Origin: an uncultured bacterium
Lineage (GTDB): Bacteria; Cyanobacteriota; Vampirovibrionia; Gastranaerophilales; Gastranaerophilaceae
Assembly (NCBI GenBank): GCA_902788575.1
Contig: CADAKY010000013.1
Location: 1 to 64,000, forward strand
DNA length: 64,000 nucleotides
Direction: 5' to 3'
Each line of letters starts with the position of its first letter. The stretch's first letter is position 1. Below, piece after piece: positions 4,868-60,986 of this stretch. The translations under genes were made by a program, and so were the position numbers. The notes below the pieces were generated by a model. It made no database searches. It saw only the letters and a program-made list of their open reading frames with translations, and had not been told where the DNA came from.

Positions 4868-4875
4868 TGATTTAA

Positions 4876-4891
4876 TGTAACAATTTTGTAA
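4876..4891 (-). promoter_or_regulatory. HLR1-like direct repeat
   Basis: TGTAA-N6-TGTAA on the plus strand, that is TTACA twice at an 11-nt period on the minus strand. This is one base longer than canonical HLR1. It lies about -70 to -55 from the predicted start of the 4979 gene. Same family as the perfect boxes at 371 and 60969, but degenerate. Confidence 0.4.
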
Positions 4892-4910
4892 TAATTAGCC
4901 TTTAATCAGG

Positions 4911-4939
4911 CAATTTTTTGTGTTCACGTGTTTTATATA
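4911..4939 (+). promoter_or_regulatory. CAATTT-N17-TATATA promoter
   Basis: CAATTT (4911-4916), 17 nt, TATATA (4934-4939), about 40 nt before ATG 4979. The same architecture precedes genes at 23661, 35555 and 44261. Confidence 0.55.
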
Positions 4940-4978: not shown

Positions 4979-5545
4979 ATGGCAGAAATACAAAGCATCG
5001 GTGCAGCAGATTATGCAATTCCGGTTCAACAACAGAATCAATATGAAACAGAAATTCCGTCTGAAGAAACAACTCCAATGGTTTATGACCCTGAGGCTGA
5101 AGAAAAGAAAAGCGCTGCTTCAAAAATGCTGGGATTAACTTTATTAGGTGTTGCTCTTGTTGGCGGCGGACTTTTGGCAGGACATGCTTGGGGCAAGGCA
5201 GGTAAAACTATTGCTAAAGAAACTCAGGAAGAATTAGTAAATACTTTGAAAGAAAATAACGAAACATTGAAGGCCGCTCTTAATGAAGCAAAAGATTTAA
5301 TAGCAGAAACAAAAGAATCTGCGATTGCTCTTGCAGAAGAAGCAAAAAATGTTACGGATAATACTTTTGGCGGATTCAAATATGGTAAAGATTTTGCCGG
5401 AAAAGTTAAAAGCAAAGTAAATACTATAAAGACCAAATCGGAAGAAATGATTATTAAATCTGAAGAAGCTATTAAAAAAGCGGAAGAATCTGTTCAGGAA
5501 AAAGCGGAAGAAGTTGTTGAAGCTGCTGAAGAAGCAGTAGCATAG
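4979..5545 (+). CDS. Membrane-anchored Ala/Glu/Lys coiled-coil protein
   Basis: 188 residues. A soluble Gln/Glu-rich N-terminus of ~42 residues is followed by one hydrophobic, Gly-rich segment (about 48-68). The rest is a long amphipathic helix rich in Ala, Glu and Lys (apolipoprotein- or LEA-like periodicity), ending in a run of EEA-type repeats. Not recognised as a named family; a role at the envelope is plausible from the single membrane segment. It is transcribed alone between topA and a bidirectional terminator, behind an HLR1-like box. ATG 4979 is the only start that keeps the N-terminal region and has an A-rich leader. Confidence 0.75.
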   Translation: MAEIQSIGAADYAIPVQQQNQYETEIPSEETTPMVYDPEAEEKKSAASKMLGLTLLGVALVGGGLLAGHAWGKAGKTIAKETQEELVNTLKENNETLKAALNEAKDLIAETKESAIALAEEAKNVTDNTFGGFKYGKDFAGKVKSKVNTIKTKSEEMIIKSEEAIKKAEESVQEKAEEVVEAAEEAVA

Positions 5546-23394: not shown

Positions 23395-23559
23395 ATGCAT
23401 AAGTTTATACCAGTCGATATAAAAACTCTTGTTGTAGCTCCTGCTGTTGACCTTAGATTTAATTTTCTTGTTATGTATATAGGCAAAGTTGTTGACACAG
23501 AAGGGTTTAAACCTGTTTTGAGATTGGTTGAAGTAAGATTATGTGTAGACTTGTCTTAA
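23395..23559 (+). CDS. Small unknown ORF in the inserted segment
   Basis: 54 residues starting ATG 23395, with balanced, protein-like composition (KVVDTEGFKPVLRLVEVRL near the end). The GGTGGG before the ATG is a poor ribosome site and there is no recognised domain. Its end overlaps the HLR1-like box of the next promoter. Could equally be a fragment. Confidence 0.35.
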   Translation: MHKFIPVDIKTLVVAPAVDLRFNFLVMYIGKVVDTEGFKPVLRLVEVRLCVDLS

Positions 23560-23573
23560 CATTTCTTAATAAT
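23556..23573 (+). promoter_or_regulatory. HLR1-like box
   Basis: TTAACATT-TC-TTAATAAT: two degenerate units at the canonical 2-nt spacing, ending 5 nt upstream of the -35. Nearly the same sequence stands in the same place before the 44261 gene. Confidence 0.45.
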
Positions 23574-23578
23574 TTAGG

Positions 23579-23608
23579 CAATTTTTCATGAGTATATGTT
23601 TTTATATA
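23579..23608 (+). promoter_or_regulatory. CAATTT-N18-TATATA promoter
   Basis: CAATTT (23579-23584) and TATATA (23603-23608), predicted start near 23615, 46 nt before ATG 23661. Confidence 0.55.
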
Positions 23609-23660: not shown

Positions 23661-23969
23661 ATGCCAATAATAGCACAGAATTCTAGTTTAAGAAATTCAC
23701 CTGAATACATTCATACTGAGGAAAAAGCAAGGAAAAATGCTATTGCAGCTGGTAAACAATATCCTAGAAAAAGAGTACAATATACACATGTATCTTTTAA
23801 TCAGGATTTAGACCCAATTAGAGAAATTTTTACTCAAAAAATAAATGTTAATCCAAAAAAGACACTAGAAACCCTAGATTGGTTAAGAAATTTAGGTCAA
23901 GAAACAAATTCTTATAAGTGTCCTAAGTGGATAAAATCATTAGTAAATGTATTCAGACATATGGCTTAG
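23661..23969 (+). CDS. Unknown basic protein in the inserted segment
   Basis: 102 residues beginning MPIIAQNSSLRNSPEYIHTE. Basic, Lys/Arg/Asn-rich, no membrane segment and no recognised domain; ends in a helical WIKSLVNVFRHMA. I chose ATG 23661 (AAGTAGG upstream) over a TTG/ATG-poor extension to 23631, which would precede the ribosome site. The EF-hand gene follows after 9 nt, so the two form an operon. Confidence 0.65.
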   Translation: MPIIAQNSSLRNSPEYIHTEEKARKNAIAAGKQYPRKRVQYTHVSFNQDLDPIREIFTQKINVNPKKTLETLDWLRNLGQETNSYKCPKWIKSLVNVFRHMA

Positions 23970-23978
23970 AGCAACGAT

Positions 23979-24515
23979 ATGAACATTACAGGTGAAACAG
24001 GTATATATAATTCATCAACAAGAGAAGGCTATGCAAGAAATGCAGCTTATAATGTTATGCAACATGATAAGCAAGTCAAAGCAAGTAACAGTAACAATCT
24101 TGACGAGATTGAGTTTGAGAATATAAGATATTCTATGTTGAAACAGGCGACTAAAGATGAGTACATCAAAGACGCTAAGATTTATGCAGATGAAAGTATA
24201 AAGGCATTATCGGATAATGGTAAAGTATCAAAAGAGCAATTTATTCCTAAAGATGTTATCCCTGCTATGCGTGAAATGCTAACGAAGTTCTTTAATGTAT
24301 TAGACTTGAACAATGACGGATACATTGACATCAATGAAAATACTGCTCATGTTATGGTAATGGATTGTGCCAAAATCTCTGACGACCTAGAGAATGTAAC
24401 AATGGAAAACCCAGATGGTGTAATTGACAGTCATAATAAGAAGAACATAGATAGGTACATATTAGAAAGACCAGAGCAAGCTAAACAGTTGCTGAAAGAG
24501 CAGAATATACAGTAA
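23979..24515 (+). CDS. EF-hand calcium-binding protein
   Basis: 178 residues, no signal peptide. Residues 109-120 read DLNNDGYIDINE, a canonical EF-hand loop with D1, N3, D5, Y7, D9 and E12 ligands and I8. A second, degenerate Asp-containing loop (NPDGVIDSHNKK) follows ~35 residues later. The N-terminal 100 residues are helical and Lys/Glu/Asp-rich. Pairs with the 102-residue gene upstream in the inserted segment. Calcium sensing or structural calcium binding is inferred; the partner is unknown. Confidence 0.75.
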   Translation: MNITGETGIYNSSTREGYARNAAYNVMQHDKQVKASNSNNLDEIEFENIRYSMLKQATKDEYIKDAKIYADESIKALSDNGKVSKEQFIPKDVIPAMREMLTKFFNVLDLNNDGYIDINENTAHVMVMDCAKISDDLENVTMENPDGVIDSHNKKNIDRYILERPEQAKQLLKEQNIQ

Positions 24516-35396: not shown

Positions 35397-35480
35397 TATA
35401 AACATTTGTAAAAAAAACACTTATTCAGGCTGGAAAAACTAAAAAAGAATGTTAATATAAGTAGTAAGGGAATAAAAAAA

Positions 35481-35502
35481 ATTGTAAAGATTTTTTTACA
35501 AT
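35481..35502. promoter_or_regulatory. Inverted HLR1 half-sites
   Basis: ATTGTAAA-N6-TTTACAAT: two perfect RpaB-type half-sites in inverted rather than direct orientation, ending 4 nt upstream of the -35 of the next promoter. Also foldable as an 8-bp hairpin. Confidence 0.45.
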
Positions 35503-35506
35503 CAAT

Positions 35507-35535
35507 CAATTTTTTCGATTCAGATGTTTTATATT
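35507..35535 (+). promoter_or_regulatory. CAATTT-N17-TATATT promoter
   Basis: CAATTT (35507-35512), 17 nt, TATATT (35530-35535), 19 nt before the GTG start. Confidence 0.55.
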
Positions 35536-35554: not shown

Positions 35555-37396
35555 GTGAATAAAGAAAAAGATATAACCAACAACATAAACAAAATATCTG
35601 AAAAATCCCCTGTGACAGTGCCTTTTGAAACATCAAAACTCGTTTCAAAAGTGAATTCATTGACACAGAAACCGACTGCGGCAGCCAGTTACGGGCAGAC
35701 CCATAAAACTCTTGTGTCTGAAAAAAGTGTTACCTTAGATTATAAATCTATGGTTGATGAAATAATAAAGCTTGCATTTATATCTGAGCAGGGAGATTTC
35801 TATTCTGCTGTATATAAAATAATCAACAAATACATTGATGCAGAATTTATGGCAGTAGGTATTTTTAAAGAAAAGTCTAATTGTATAAATATAAAACTTA
35901 AAGAAAAACTGGGGAACATATATTCATCAAAAACTTTTCTAAAAGATACCGATAATCCTATTGTACAGTCGTTTATTGAAAGAAAAGTTATTTTTAAGAA
36001 TGATGTAAACTTTTTAAAAATGGCGTATTTCAAAAATCAATCAGTTGCAATTGTTCCTATGATTTCTGTTAATAAGTGTATAGGTGTGATGATTTTTCAA
36101 GATAAAAATGCACGCCAAAATATTGAATTATATACTCTTATTGCTAATTATGCAGGTTTGGTTTCTCATAATTGCGAGTTAATGGAAAAAGCAGAAGAGT
36201 ATGTAAATACGGATAATTTAACATTATTGTATAACCACAGAGGTTTTCAGGAAATATTGCAAAATGAGATTTTAAGGGCAGATGTTAAAAAACAGCAGCT
36301 ATCTGTCATAATGCTTGATATTTGCAATATAACAAAAATTAACAGAGAACTCGGGCATGCAAAAGGGGATGAAGTTATTAAACTTGTTGCCGATAATGTA
36401 AAACGTAATTTAAGAGAAGGTGATATTGCTGCAAGATATGGCGGAGACGAGCTTGCAATAATACTTCCGAATACATCAATTTCTCAGGCAAAATATGTTG
36501 CTGAATATTTAACGTATTCTTTGTCCTGCTTCTTTATAGATGATGTGGGACCCGTAAAAGTATCCGTTGGAATTTCAACTTATCCGGAAAGTGCAGGAGA
36601 CAAAGAAAAACTTCTTGTACTTGCCGAGCAGGCTATGTATATTTCAAAGGCAAAAGGTTATAAAGACGGTATGTCCGCAATTATCAGTTCTGCTGACTTC
36701 AACTTCTGGGATGATGTTGCTTTGCAATCTTATGCAGAAGTTTTGAGTAAGCGTCACGCACAGCTTGGAATAAATTTTGAAGAAGAACTTCTTGAAAAAT
36801 TCAATTCGGAGCACGATACAATATCAGAGAATAAGATTTTTGAAATAGCATCATCATTAGCAGGCGCAATTGATGCAAAAGACCCTTATACAAAAGACCA
36901 TTCGACTTCAGTTTCCAGATTCTCGGAAGCTCTTGCAAGAGCAATCAATTTGCCGGAAACAGAAGTAGAGCGCATAAAACTGGGTGCTTTGCTTCATGAT
37001 GTCGGAAAAATCGGTATTCCGGAAACTGTATTAAAGAAAGAGGGCCCGCTTTCTGATGAAGAATGGAAAGTAATGAAACAGCATCCTTCAATCGGTGCGG
37101 AAAAAGTTTTGATGCCAAATCCGTCACTTAGAGATTTGATACCTATTGTAAAATACCACCATGAAAGAATTGACGGTAAAGGATATCCGGAAGGTCTTTC
37201 AAATGGCAGTATTCCGCTAGCCGCAAAAGTTGTGGCAATAGCGGATACTTACCATGCTTTGATAAGCGACAGACCGTACAGACGCGGAATGGATATGGAA
37301 AAGGCTCTTTCAATATTGGAAGAAGGTGCGGGTACTCAATGGGATGCTGATTTGGTAAGAACATTTATAAGTATTGCACCATCTCTGGGAGTGTAG
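35555..37396 (+). CDS. GAF-GGDEF-HD-GYP cyclic-di-GMP protein
   Basis: 613 residues starting with GTG 35555 (AAAGGTGG upstream). A Ser/Lys/Thr-rich N-terminus (~1-70), GAF domain (~75-215), GGDEF domain (~220-370) and HD-GYP phosphodiesterase (~420-610: LLHDVGKIGIPETVL and HHERIDGKGYPEGL, metal ligands intact). The GGDEF signature reads GGDEL, but an inhibitory-site RxxD (REGD) is present five residues before. Could both make and degrade c-di-GMP, or use GGDEF as a sensor. No membrane segment. Confidence 0.92.
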   Translation: MNKEKDITNNINKISEKSPVTVPFETSKLVSKVNSLTQKPTAAASYGQTHKTLVSEKSVTLDYKSMVDEIIKLAFISEQGDFYSAVYKIINKYIDAEFMAVGIFKEKSNCINIKLKEKLGNIYSSKTFLKDTDNPIVQSFIERKVIFKNDVNFLKMAYFKNQSVAIVPMISVNKCIGVMIFQDKNARQNIELYTLIANYAGLVSHNCELMEKAEEYVNTDNLTLLYNHRGFQEILQNEILRADVKKQQLSVIMLDICNITKINRELGHAKGDEVIKLVADNVKRNLREGDIAARYGGDELAIILPNTSISQAKYVAEYLTYSLSCFFIDDVGPVKVSVGISTYPESAGDKEKLLVLAEQAMYISKAKGYKDGMSAIISSADFNFWDDVALQSYAEVLSKRHAQLGINFEEELLEKFNSEHDTISENKIFEIASSLAGAIDAKDPYTKDHSTSVSRFSEALARAINLPETEVERIKLGALLHDVGKIGIPETVLKKEGPLSDEEWKVMKQHPSIGAEKVLMPNPSLRDLIPIVKYHHERIDGKGYPEGLSNGSIPLAAKVVAIADTYHALISDRPYRRGMDMEKALSILEEGAGTQWDADLVRTFISIAPSLGV

Positions 37397-44180: not shown

Positions 44181-44198
44181 GTTACATTTCTTAACAAT
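44181..44198 (+). promoter_or_regulatory. HLR1-type box, near-consensus
   Basis: GTTACATT-TC-TTAACAAT: the first unit perfect, the second with one mismatch, canonical spacing. It lies at about -58 to -41 from the predicted start of the 44261 gene. A further half-site GTTACAAA is at 44212-44219, inside the spacer of the promoter. Confidence 0.6.
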
Positions 44199-44202
44199 TA
44201 GT

Positions 44203-44232
44203 CAATTTTTTGTTACAAAAAAACTTTATATA
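44203..44232 (+). promoter_or_regulatory. CAATTT-N18-TATATA promoter
   Basis: CAATTT (44203-44208) and TATATA (44227-44232), 28 nt before ATG 44261, with GGTTAGG as ribosome site. Confidence 0.55.
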
Positions 44233-44260
44233 TATAAGGTTAGTTAAAGGTTAGGTAAAA

Positions 44261-45574
44261 ATGGGCATTCCATCAATAAATACACTTGCGAATATGGAAT
44301 ATATGCTGTATGGCGGAACATCCGGCTCAAGGGCAAACTGTCCGAGTTATTCAAATGGGTACTGTTCACAAGGAGCATATAATTCGACCCCTTATGGATA
44401 CGGATATCCTGCATTTGGTTCTGTTTATCCTAACTATTATACAAATAATAATTCCTCTTCTATAATGAACGGAAATTCATCCGCTCTTTCAACGCAGGGC
44501 TTATCATCGCAGGGAACGTCTGCACAATCCACATCTTTCCAACAGGGAATAACACAGGAAGATATTGATAAGCTGGCTGATTATTATGCAAAAAATAATG
44601 TATTGGAAGAAGGTTTTTTAGGTGCGGCTGGCGGAGGCTTAAGCTGGATGGCTTGGGAACATGCGCAATCTCTTGTGCATCCTTTGAATGCCAATAAAGG
44701 TTTTAAGGCAGCAGAGGAAATATTTAAAAATGTTCCGAAAGAATTTATGAAAAAGAACCCTGTATTGTCTCAGGAAGCTTGGAGAGTTTTACAGCAAGCT
44801 ACACGAGATACCGAAAGTAAATGGTTCACATCAGGGTGGTTAAGAAAACCGATTCCTAAAGCTGATATTCAACCGTATATTGATAATTTAAAGAACGCCT
44901 TAGCCGGCGGAAAAGTGGATGAAGTTGCAAAAGCAACGGTAGAATTAGATGCCGCAAGGGGTATGGACGGCAAACTTGCCGGTTTAATAAGCAAAAAAAG
45001 AACAGTCGCAGAAAGAATTGCCCAAAAAACGGAATCAGGAGAAATTGCTAAAAATACAGCAAATCTTATTAATATAAGTCAGGGTGGTTTCGGTTCTCTG
45101 GTAAAAAGCACATTCAAAAAAGATTTTGTCGGATTCATGGCAATTGAAGCATTAGGTAATGCAGGAAAAATATTTACGGCATTTGGTAAAGATACTGAAA
45201 CAGGTGTAAAACAAACAGGTCAATCTCTCGGAAAATCTGCTCTGGGTGTAACCGGATGGTGTTTGGGCCGTGCTGCAGGTACTTGGCTTGGTGCAAAAGC
45301 CGGTGCTGTGATTGGTTCAGCTATATGCCCCGGAGCGGGAACTGTTGCGGGTGCCGTAATCGGGTTTGTTGTAGGTTCAATCGGTATGTGGGCAGGTCAC
45401 AAACTTGGAAATTGGATTCTCGGGCAGGATGTAGCGGATAAAGTTGAAGCCGAAAAACTTGCAAAATCACCGCAAGGACAGGCACAATTACTTCAGTTTG
45501 CAGCTCAAAAAGCGCAGGAAGGCAAAACTGATGCGCAAACAAATAATATTCTTATGAAAGCATTAAGTGCATAA
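44261..45574 (+). CDS. Unknown protein with C-terminal glycine-zipper hydrophobic domain
   Basis: 437 residues. A Tyr/Ser/Asn/Gly-rich disordered start (~1-90), a helical middle (~95-300), then a hydrophobic Gly-zipper stretch (~325-385: GRAAGTWLGAKAGAVIGSA and GTVAGAVIGFVVGSIGMWAG) able to form a hairpin in a membrane, and a Gln/Ala/Lys tail. No signal peptide. Glycine-zipper domains of this kind occur in pore-forming toxins and secreted effectors, and also in harmless envelope proteins. Head-to-head with the Gly/Phe-rich gene at 42865. Confidence 0.7.
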   Translation: MGIPSINTLANMEYMLYGGTSGSRANCPSYSNGYCSQGAYNSTPYGYGYPAFGSVYPNYYTNNNSSSIMNGNSSALSTQGLSSQGTSAQSTSFQQGITQEDIDKLADYYAKNNVLEEGFLGAAGGGLSWMAWEHAQSLVHPLNANKGFKAAEEIFKNVPKEFMKKNPVLSQEAWRVLQQATRDTESKWFTSGWLRKPIPKADIQPYIDNLKNALAGGKVDEVAKATVELDAARGMDGKLAGLISKKRTVAERIAQKTESGEIAKNTANLINISQGGFGSLVKSTFKKDFVGFMAIEALGNAGKIFTAFGKDTETGVKQTGQSLGKSALGVTGWCLGRAAGTWLGAKAGAVIGSAICPGAGTVAGAVIGFVVGSIGMWAGHKLGNWILGQDVADKVEAEKLAKSPQGQAQLLQFAAQKAQEGKTDAQTNNILMKALSA

Positions 45575-57595: not shown

Positions 57596-57669
57596 ATTAA
57601 AAAAAATATGCTTGCAAATTTCTTTAACTTCTATTAAGATATATGTATAAATATTAAGAAATTAAAATT

Positions 57670-57677
57670 TTTGTAAA
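57670..57677 (-). promoter_or_regulatory. HLR1 half-site before the RpaB-like gene
   Basis: TTTGTAAA, one perfect half-site, 26 nt before ATG 57703. Autoregulation possible but only half a box. Confidence 0.3.
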
Positions 57678-57702: not shown

Positions 57703-58491
57703 ATGGCAGAAGAAAATGAAGAAATATTAGAGACGGAAGCCGATACTCGTCAAAAGATTTTGGTAGCTGATGATGAAGCTAGTATAAGAAGAATATTGGA
57801 AACTCGTCTCAAGATGGTTGGTTATGACGTTGTAACGGCAGAAGACGGAGAAGAAGCTGTAGAAGTTTTCAATAAAACAAATCCTGATTTGGTAGTGTTA
57901 GATGTAATGATGCCAAAAATGGACGGTTATGGTGTAACAAGAGAGATAAGAAGAACATCTGATGTTCCGATTATTATACTTACCGCTTTAGGTGATGTAT
58001 CAGAAAGAATTACAGGTTTAGAGCTCGGTGCAGATGATTATGTAATCAAACCATTCAGCCCGAAGGAACTTGAAGCTCGTGTAAAAGCTGTTTTAAGAAG
58101 AACTATTAATAAGGATGTTATTATACCTACATCCTCTTCTGCAGCAGGTTCCGGTGCTACAGGTGGTAAAAATAACAAAAATGTTATTACAACAGGTGCT
58201 ATAAAGATTGATACAGCAAGAAGACAAGTATACAGAAAGAATGAAAGAATTCGTTTAACAGGTATGGAATTCAGTCTTCTTGAACTTCTTGTAAATAATT
58301 CAGGTCAAGCATATTCAAGAAACGAAATCTTGCAGCATGTTTGGTCATACCCTGCTGATCATAGAATTGATACAAGGGTTGTTGATGTTCATATTTCAAG
58401 ATTACGTTCAAAGTTAGAAACAGACCCGAACAATCCGGAATTGATTTTGACAGCACGCGGAATCGGATATATGTTTCAGAGAATAAATTAA
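57703..58491 (+). CDS. RpaB-like OmpR-family response regulator
   Basis: 262 residues. Receiver domain (~17-135): DDE near 23-25, phospho-acceptor D67 in VVLDVMMPKMDGYGV, T/A switch and K in VIKPFSP. A Ser/Gly/Asn linker to ~165, then the winged helix (~165-262: RIRLTGMEFSLLELLVNNSG, DTRVVDVHISRLRSKLETDP, ELILTARGIGYMFQR). ILETRL, ALGDVSERITGLELGADDYV and the DNA-recognition helix are nearly those I remember for cyanobacterial RpaB, which binds HLR1 boxes under NblS/Hik33 control. No kinase is adjacent. Identity with RpaB is from memory, not a search. Confidence 0.88.
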   Translation: MAEENEEILETEADTRQKILVADDEASIRRILETRLKMVGYDVVTAEDGEEAVEVFNKTNPDLVVLDVMMPKMDGYGVTREIRRTSDVPIIILTALGDVSERITGLELGADDYVIKPFSPKELEARVKAVLRRTINKDVIIPTSSSAAGSGATGGKNNKNVITTGAIKIDTARRQVYRKNERIRLTGMEFSLLELLVNNSGQAYSRNEILQHVWSYPADHRIDTRVVDVHISRLRSKLETDPNNPELILTARGIGYMFQRIN

Positions 58492-60968: not shown

Positions 60969-60986
60969 ATTGTAAATTTTTGTAAA
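60969..60986 (-). promoter_or_regulatory. HLR1-type RpaB box, perfect match, upstream of rpoB
   Basis: On the minus strand TTTACAAA-AA-TTTACAAT, exact consensus with canonical spacing. It lies at about -90 to -73 from the predicted rpoB start. Confidence 0.7.

Follow-up and report, generated by a model that had tools for sequence, protein, structure and literature searches.

The stretch of DNA analysed here, referred to as the window, comprises the first 64,000 nucleotides of contig CADAKY010000013.1 from an uncultured bacterium of the family Gastranaerophilaceae. An earlier note on this DNA had described an HLR1-like repeat in front of a recurring promoter type, and all four modules that it cited (near 4876, 23556, 35481 and 44181) were present in the sequence. 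In the module at 44181, the HLR1-like box GTTACATTTCTTAACAAT (44181–44198, plus strand) matched 15 of 16 consensus positions, lay at a gap of 4 nt to CAATTT and was kept in orthologous promoters. The promoter core CAATTTTTTGTTACAAAAAAACTTTATATA is located at 44203–44232 on the plus strand, with CAATTT at 44203–44208 and TATATA at 44227–44232. The gene behind it (44261–45574, plus strand) encodes a 437-aa protein that is restricted to Gastranaerophilales and that the earlier note read as Gly-zipper-like.

The core at 23579–23608 (plus strand) has the TGTTTTTATATA form and is preceded by a 13/16 box at 23556–23573 (plus strand), with a gap of 5 nt to CAATTT at 23579. The genes behind it (23661–24515, plus strand) encode a 102-aa orphan and then a 178-aa protein with an EF-hand-like match. 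Two boxes overlap at 35471–35502, namely a reverse one (35471–35488; 14/16, gap 18) and a direct one (35485–35502; 13/16, gap 4). They are followed by a plus-strand core of the TGTTTTATATT form (35507–35535, CAATTT at 35507), in which the spacer is one base shorter, and by the gene of a 613-aa GGDEF-containing protein (35555–37396, plus strand). The core at 4911–4939 (plus strand) has the TGTTTTATATA form and stands before a 188-aa membrane/coiled-coil-like orphan (4979–5545, plus strand). This site had been listed at 4876–4939 as a looser example of the same arrangement. The module is present, but its box (4874–4891, minus strand, 13/16) is not a direct one ending 4–6 nt away; it is reverse-oriented with a gap of 19 nt to CAATTT at 4911, so the site belongs to the reverse-orientation register. 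In the leaders after many module promoters (44229–44262 in the window; L281–L303), GGTTAG / AGGTTAGGT was repeated and conserved across orthologues, possibly as a variant ribosome-binding site or as some other control element.

The window also carries rpaB (57703–58491, plus strand), which encodes an OmpR-family response regulator and is the predicted trans-acting factor. Its product scored 355.8 bits against the NCBIfam RpaB equivalog NF045944 (cut-off 330) and shared 71–72% identity with the "light-stress" regulator RpaB of cyanobacteria, with an identical recognition-helix stretch (DTRVVDVHISRLR). Homologues of RpaB, RpaA and NblS were reported in Melainabacteria in 2013, their role being unknown (PMC3787301). 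Among the 4 scanned of the 10 HisKA proteins encoded here, no NblS equivalog was found at the NCBIfam cut-off. A 14/16 HLR1-like box (57660–57677) overlaps the rpaB leader, downstream of the predicted promoter and ahead of the start codon, and autoregulation of rpaB is possible. Perfect 16/16 boxes were found outside the core promoters. One (60969–60986) precedes rpoB (61206) by approximately 220 nt, next to a sigma70-like promoter of plain type (TTGACG...TATGAT), and a reverse one (371–388) precedes an orphan ORF (477–2051), with a degenerate core approximately 18 nt downstream. Because of these two boxes and the weaker one at rpaB, the regulator RpaB probably also acts at ordinary promoters and perhaps at its own gene, provided that it is the binder.

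The pattern CAATTT-N17/18-TATATW had 4 matches in the 64-kb window, where 0.29 would be expected, and no dinucleotide shuffle out of 100 gave as many. The genome (1.73 Mb) was covered by pattern searches over its full length and by selected stretches; it had 66 matches, compared with 7 for the reversed-pattern control. Alignment of the sites gave a longer core, AAAGG-CAATTTTT-N13-CTTTATATA. In the 52 aligned sites, an A run is followed by G or GG, CAATTTTT, 13 variable bases, CTTTATATA and a TATGTAAG-like sequence. Exact CAATTTTT-N13-CTTTATATA occurred 39 times in the genome. With up to three mismatches there were 217 matches against 94 in the control, and thus only the layer with 0–1 mismatch (59 sites) is clean. 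A second core form, TGTTTTTATATA, agrees with the main form in CAATTTTT and in spacing. The positional information profile showed that the core is nearly invariant and deviates from the canonical sigma-70 promoter TTGACA-N17-TATAAT. TACTTT was considered as an alternative −10 element with sigma70-like spacing to AGGCA; it fits the main form but misfits the TGTTTTTATATA form. The promoter type CAATTT-N17/18-TATAT(A/T) proposed earlier recurs genome-wide, but it is part of a longer core that has a second form and is specific to the order.

The HLR1 consensus KTTACAWW-N2-KTTACAWW is the known site of RpaB (PMC13421787). Boxes were scored against the 16 positions of this literature consensus, which was not fitted to the sites scored. 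A box of at least 14/16 was found upstream of 41 of 56 core promoters, against 3.7 (maximum 9) in dinucleotide shuffles. At a threshold of 13/16, the count was 47 of 56, against 17.1 (maximum 26). Accordingly, 15 of the 56 promoters lacked a recognizable box at the stricter threshold and 9 at the looser one. Half-sites in this genome often read TTAACA or TGTAACA and so deviate slightly from the TTACA of the cyanobacterial consensus.

The gaps between box and CAATTT were almost exclusively 4–5, 14–15 and 25–26 nt for direct boxes, and 7–8, 17–19 and 29 nt for reverse boxes. In both orientations the gaps were phased at 10.5 bp with R = 0.94, and the nominal Rayleigh p-values (approximately 1e-9 and 5e-8) are indicative since they assume independent sites and relatives are not independent samples. 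The commonest direct gap was 14–15 nt, the counts per register being approximate because a period-10 repeat can move the best hit by one turn. Such a repeat cannot by itself produce the lock to CAATTT. The same registers recurred in two further species of this genus, where boxes of at least 13/16 preceded 18 of 20 promoters (G114) and 19 of 20 (G106), and in scattered other genomes of the order 23 of 30 promoters had a box at this threshold. The gap of 4–6 nt given in the earlier note is present at its three close examples but is one of several helically spaced registers. The spacing relation itself persisted and became sharper when examined genome-wide, and it was repeated in other species. 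If transcription starts approximately 7 nt after TATATA, the boxes would span positions from about −58 to −41, or from about −69 to −52, near the −66 to −45 at which HLR1 activates in cyanobacteria (PMC13421787).

In public genomes, 23 orthologues of the 44261 gene were found, with protein identities of 31–58%, a result that also places the organism in the group Candidatus Gastranaerophilales. The named carriers are Gastranaerophilales or UBA cyanobacteria, except for one MAG labelled Acinetobacter. The core was kept upstream in 22 of the 23 orthologues; nearly all of these had a phased box, and most a 13–16/16 box at a gap of 4–5. In one orthologous promoter (L292) the box stands at a gap of 15, and in another (L300) it lies approximately one turn further out; these shifts are the within-orthologue counterpart of the phasing rule.

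Of 146 genomes of the order, 144 had the strict core, and the control was close to zero. Copy numbers were 17–51 in the same genus and typically approximately 5–20 elsewhere in the family. Where strict matches were scarce or absent in genomes of the order, the relaxed core still exceeded its control (G004 54/3, G011 63/10, G024 40/2, G026 38/4). The strict core was missing from all five genomes of a sister family in the class (f8); their relaxed matches numbered 10–17 against 2–5 in the control, and the ones inspected lacked the surrounding features. Approximately 150 further genomes of the phylum gave four single stray matches, and we summarize the strict core as absent from photosynthetic cyanobacteria. 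Clear boxes in the same register were found in families f4 and f7 (L237 of G011, 16/16; L249 of G004, 14/16; L247 of G007, 14/16). In the early-branching families f3 and f7, a handful of inspected promoters showed a clear core and few clear boxes, and in f3 none of the inspected boxes was convincing although the core was clear. The best reading is that this promoter class is order-wide and order-specific and arose within Gastranaerophilales.

An ORF starts no more than 60 nt downstream at 63 of 77 sites. Pfam matches were found in a minority of the 68 downstream proteins. Among the listed matches were two HEAT, two HD, two ribbon-helix-helix, one GGDEF, UMP kinase, M16, M23, transglutaminase-like and DUF6782 metallopeptidase-like, and we estimate, rather than count, that approximately three quarters of the proteins have no Pfam family. 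Of the other window proteins scanned, 27 of 30 matched Pfam, this set including the EF-hand-like second gene behind 23579. A crude hydropathy rule gave a signal-peptide-like N-terminus in 1 of 68 module proteins and 8 of 46 controls. An N-terminal F-[RKQTG]-[GA] motif was tried as a common feature of the downstream proteins and rejected, since it was not enriched (12/68 vs. 6/46 in controls). The targets had been described as accessory rather than housekeeping genes. This holds for most of them, but pyrH lies behind one copy, and a perfect box without a core also stands before rpoB.

Some target proteins have features of their own. Small ribbon-helix-helix (CopG-like) proteins are encoded behind module promoters in this genome (L010, L022) and, conserved, in another genus (L113 of G086), and they are possible feedback regulators. 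Seven proteins without a signal peptide (L005, L009, L052, L054, L082, L086, L089) carry metallopeptidase-, transglutaminase-, weakly calpain- or weakly ADP-ribosyltransferase-like features, which are suggestive of enzyme-like or effector-like roles. Five module promoters (L007, L043, L044, L047, L056) are near-identical and mostly lie at contig ends (those of C2, C9, C12 and C23, besides one in C10), probably representing a repeated gene family split by the assembly.

We consider it likely, with a probability of roughly 80%, that these modules form a regulon that is activated by RpaB, is specific to this order of non-photosynthetic cyanobacterial relatives and is built on an activator-dependent promoter class. 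The earlier proposal of a defined regulon with its box in an activator-like position is supported, as far as sequence can indicate, by the phased spacing across the genome and its replication in other species. We infer that RpaB is the binder and acts as an activator; the start sites, the signal and the sigma factor reading the core are likewise predictions. An RpaB dimer would bind the HLR1-like direct repeat, with its two half-sites at a 10-bp period. When bound on the right helix face, it would contact RNA polymerase on a weak, non-canonical core, with CAATTTTT around −35 and CTTTATATA around −10. A box one, two or three turns upstream, in either orientation, would be tolerated because only the helix face would matter. 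The regulon may comprise approximately 60–80 promoters in this genome, mostly before genes of lineage-specific proteins without a signal peptide.

The genome encodes eight sigma factors. Three group-2 clades (s62, s63, s64) were confined to the order in a 78-member sigma-factor tree, and these clades have altered DNA-contact residues (L061–L064, L161–L230). The clade s62 (G000:C1, L062) has isoleucine at the position of T440 and lysine at the position of R584 of E. coli sigma70, which we take to be DNA-contact positions. The core might be the promoter of an order-specific alternative group-2 sigma factor, with s62 as the best candidate and RpaB only as a co-activator or modulator. We regard this as a serious explanation, although the odds are somewhat against it. 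The nearly invariant core departs from TTGACA/TATAAT, and s62 occurs in every order genome tested, in a phyletic range that matches the core. However, the evidence is one of co-occurrence, s63 has the same distribution as s62, and SigA could read the core with the help of RpaB. The clade s64 (L064) was attractive because of its diverged regions 1.2, 2.4 and 4.2, but it was rejected as a requirement since G004, which has no s64, still shows 54 relaxed matches to the core (3 in the control). Two DNA-contact positions at which s62 deviates from SigA would make it a better candidate than s63. We speculate, more tentatively, on a two-key system in which s62 reads the CAATTTTT/CTTTATATA core and RpaB, descended from an ancestor in common with photosynthetic cyanobacteria, licenses it, the targets being lineage-specific and possibly host- or surface-directed.

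Activation by RpaB itself remains our preferred reading, and we think it unlikely that the box is the site of a different OmpR-type regulator that recognizes a similar direct repeat. The frequent TTAACA/TGTAACA half-sites and the presence of two further OmpR-type regulators, making three with RpaB, would allow this. However, both fail the RpaB equivalog (204–206 bits against the cut-off of 330), their DNA-binding domains are only 28% identical to that of RpaB with unrelated recognition helices, and many boxes match the literature HLR1 at 15–16 of 16 positions. It is similarly improbable that the box represses. RpaB does repress where HLR1 overlaps the start (PMC13421787), and the possible box just upstream of the rpaB start codon is in keeping with such a role, but the module boxes lie upstream of CAATTT and are helically phased, which is the geometry of activation. 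It is hardly credible that a repeated or mobile element has given rise to the sites by copying and that they are not promoters maintained independently: a few near-identical copies do lie at contig ends (L007, L043, L044, L056), but the great majority of sites have different flanking sequences, spacers and downstream genes, most are directed into an ORF, and orthologous promoters are conserved across species despite low protein identity.

The RpaB-activated regulon proposed here resembles the RpaB/HLR1 system of Synechocystis PCC 6803 and Synechococcus PCC 7942 in its orthologous regulator, identical recognition-helix stretch and 18-bp box consensus. The box just upstream of the −35 region would also be in the activating position, if the predicted start holds. 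In contrast, the targets are mostly proteins of unknown family rather than photosynthesis genes, the core is fixed and non-canonical, the box is found in both orientations and at distances of one to three helical turns, and no NblS equivalog was among the four kinases scanned. Melainabacteria have no photosynthesis genes (PMC3787301). Because the targets are orphans and photosynthesis genes are absent, the likeness is that of a system that works like the RpaB/HLR1 regulon with a different target set. As read here, it is a variant of that regulon that has been moved into a lineage without photosynthesis, its target genes there being mostly unknown. Class I/II activation by OmpR/PhoB-family regulators likewise uses a direct repeat of approximately 10 bp upstream of a weak −35 and depends on helical phase, but its arrangements vary promoter by promoter, whereas period-10 HLR1 half-sites and a stereotyped, lineage-wide core are found here. 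Sigma-70 group 2 promoters share the two-block core and the 17–18 nt spacer; they differ in having TTGACA/TATAAT in place of CAATTT/CTTTATATA, whose last −10 base is A, not T.

Among the open-access papers searched, none was found to report targets of HLR1 for these bacteria. With a target list, a binding site and a core, the role of RpaB without photosynthesis becomes directly testable. The regulon bears on whether RpaB predates photosynthesis in the phylum. If the two-key system is true, RpaB would be dedicated to a large lineage-specific protein set. The regulon also offers a way into the study of dozens of functionally uncharacterized proteins from a common gut lineage.
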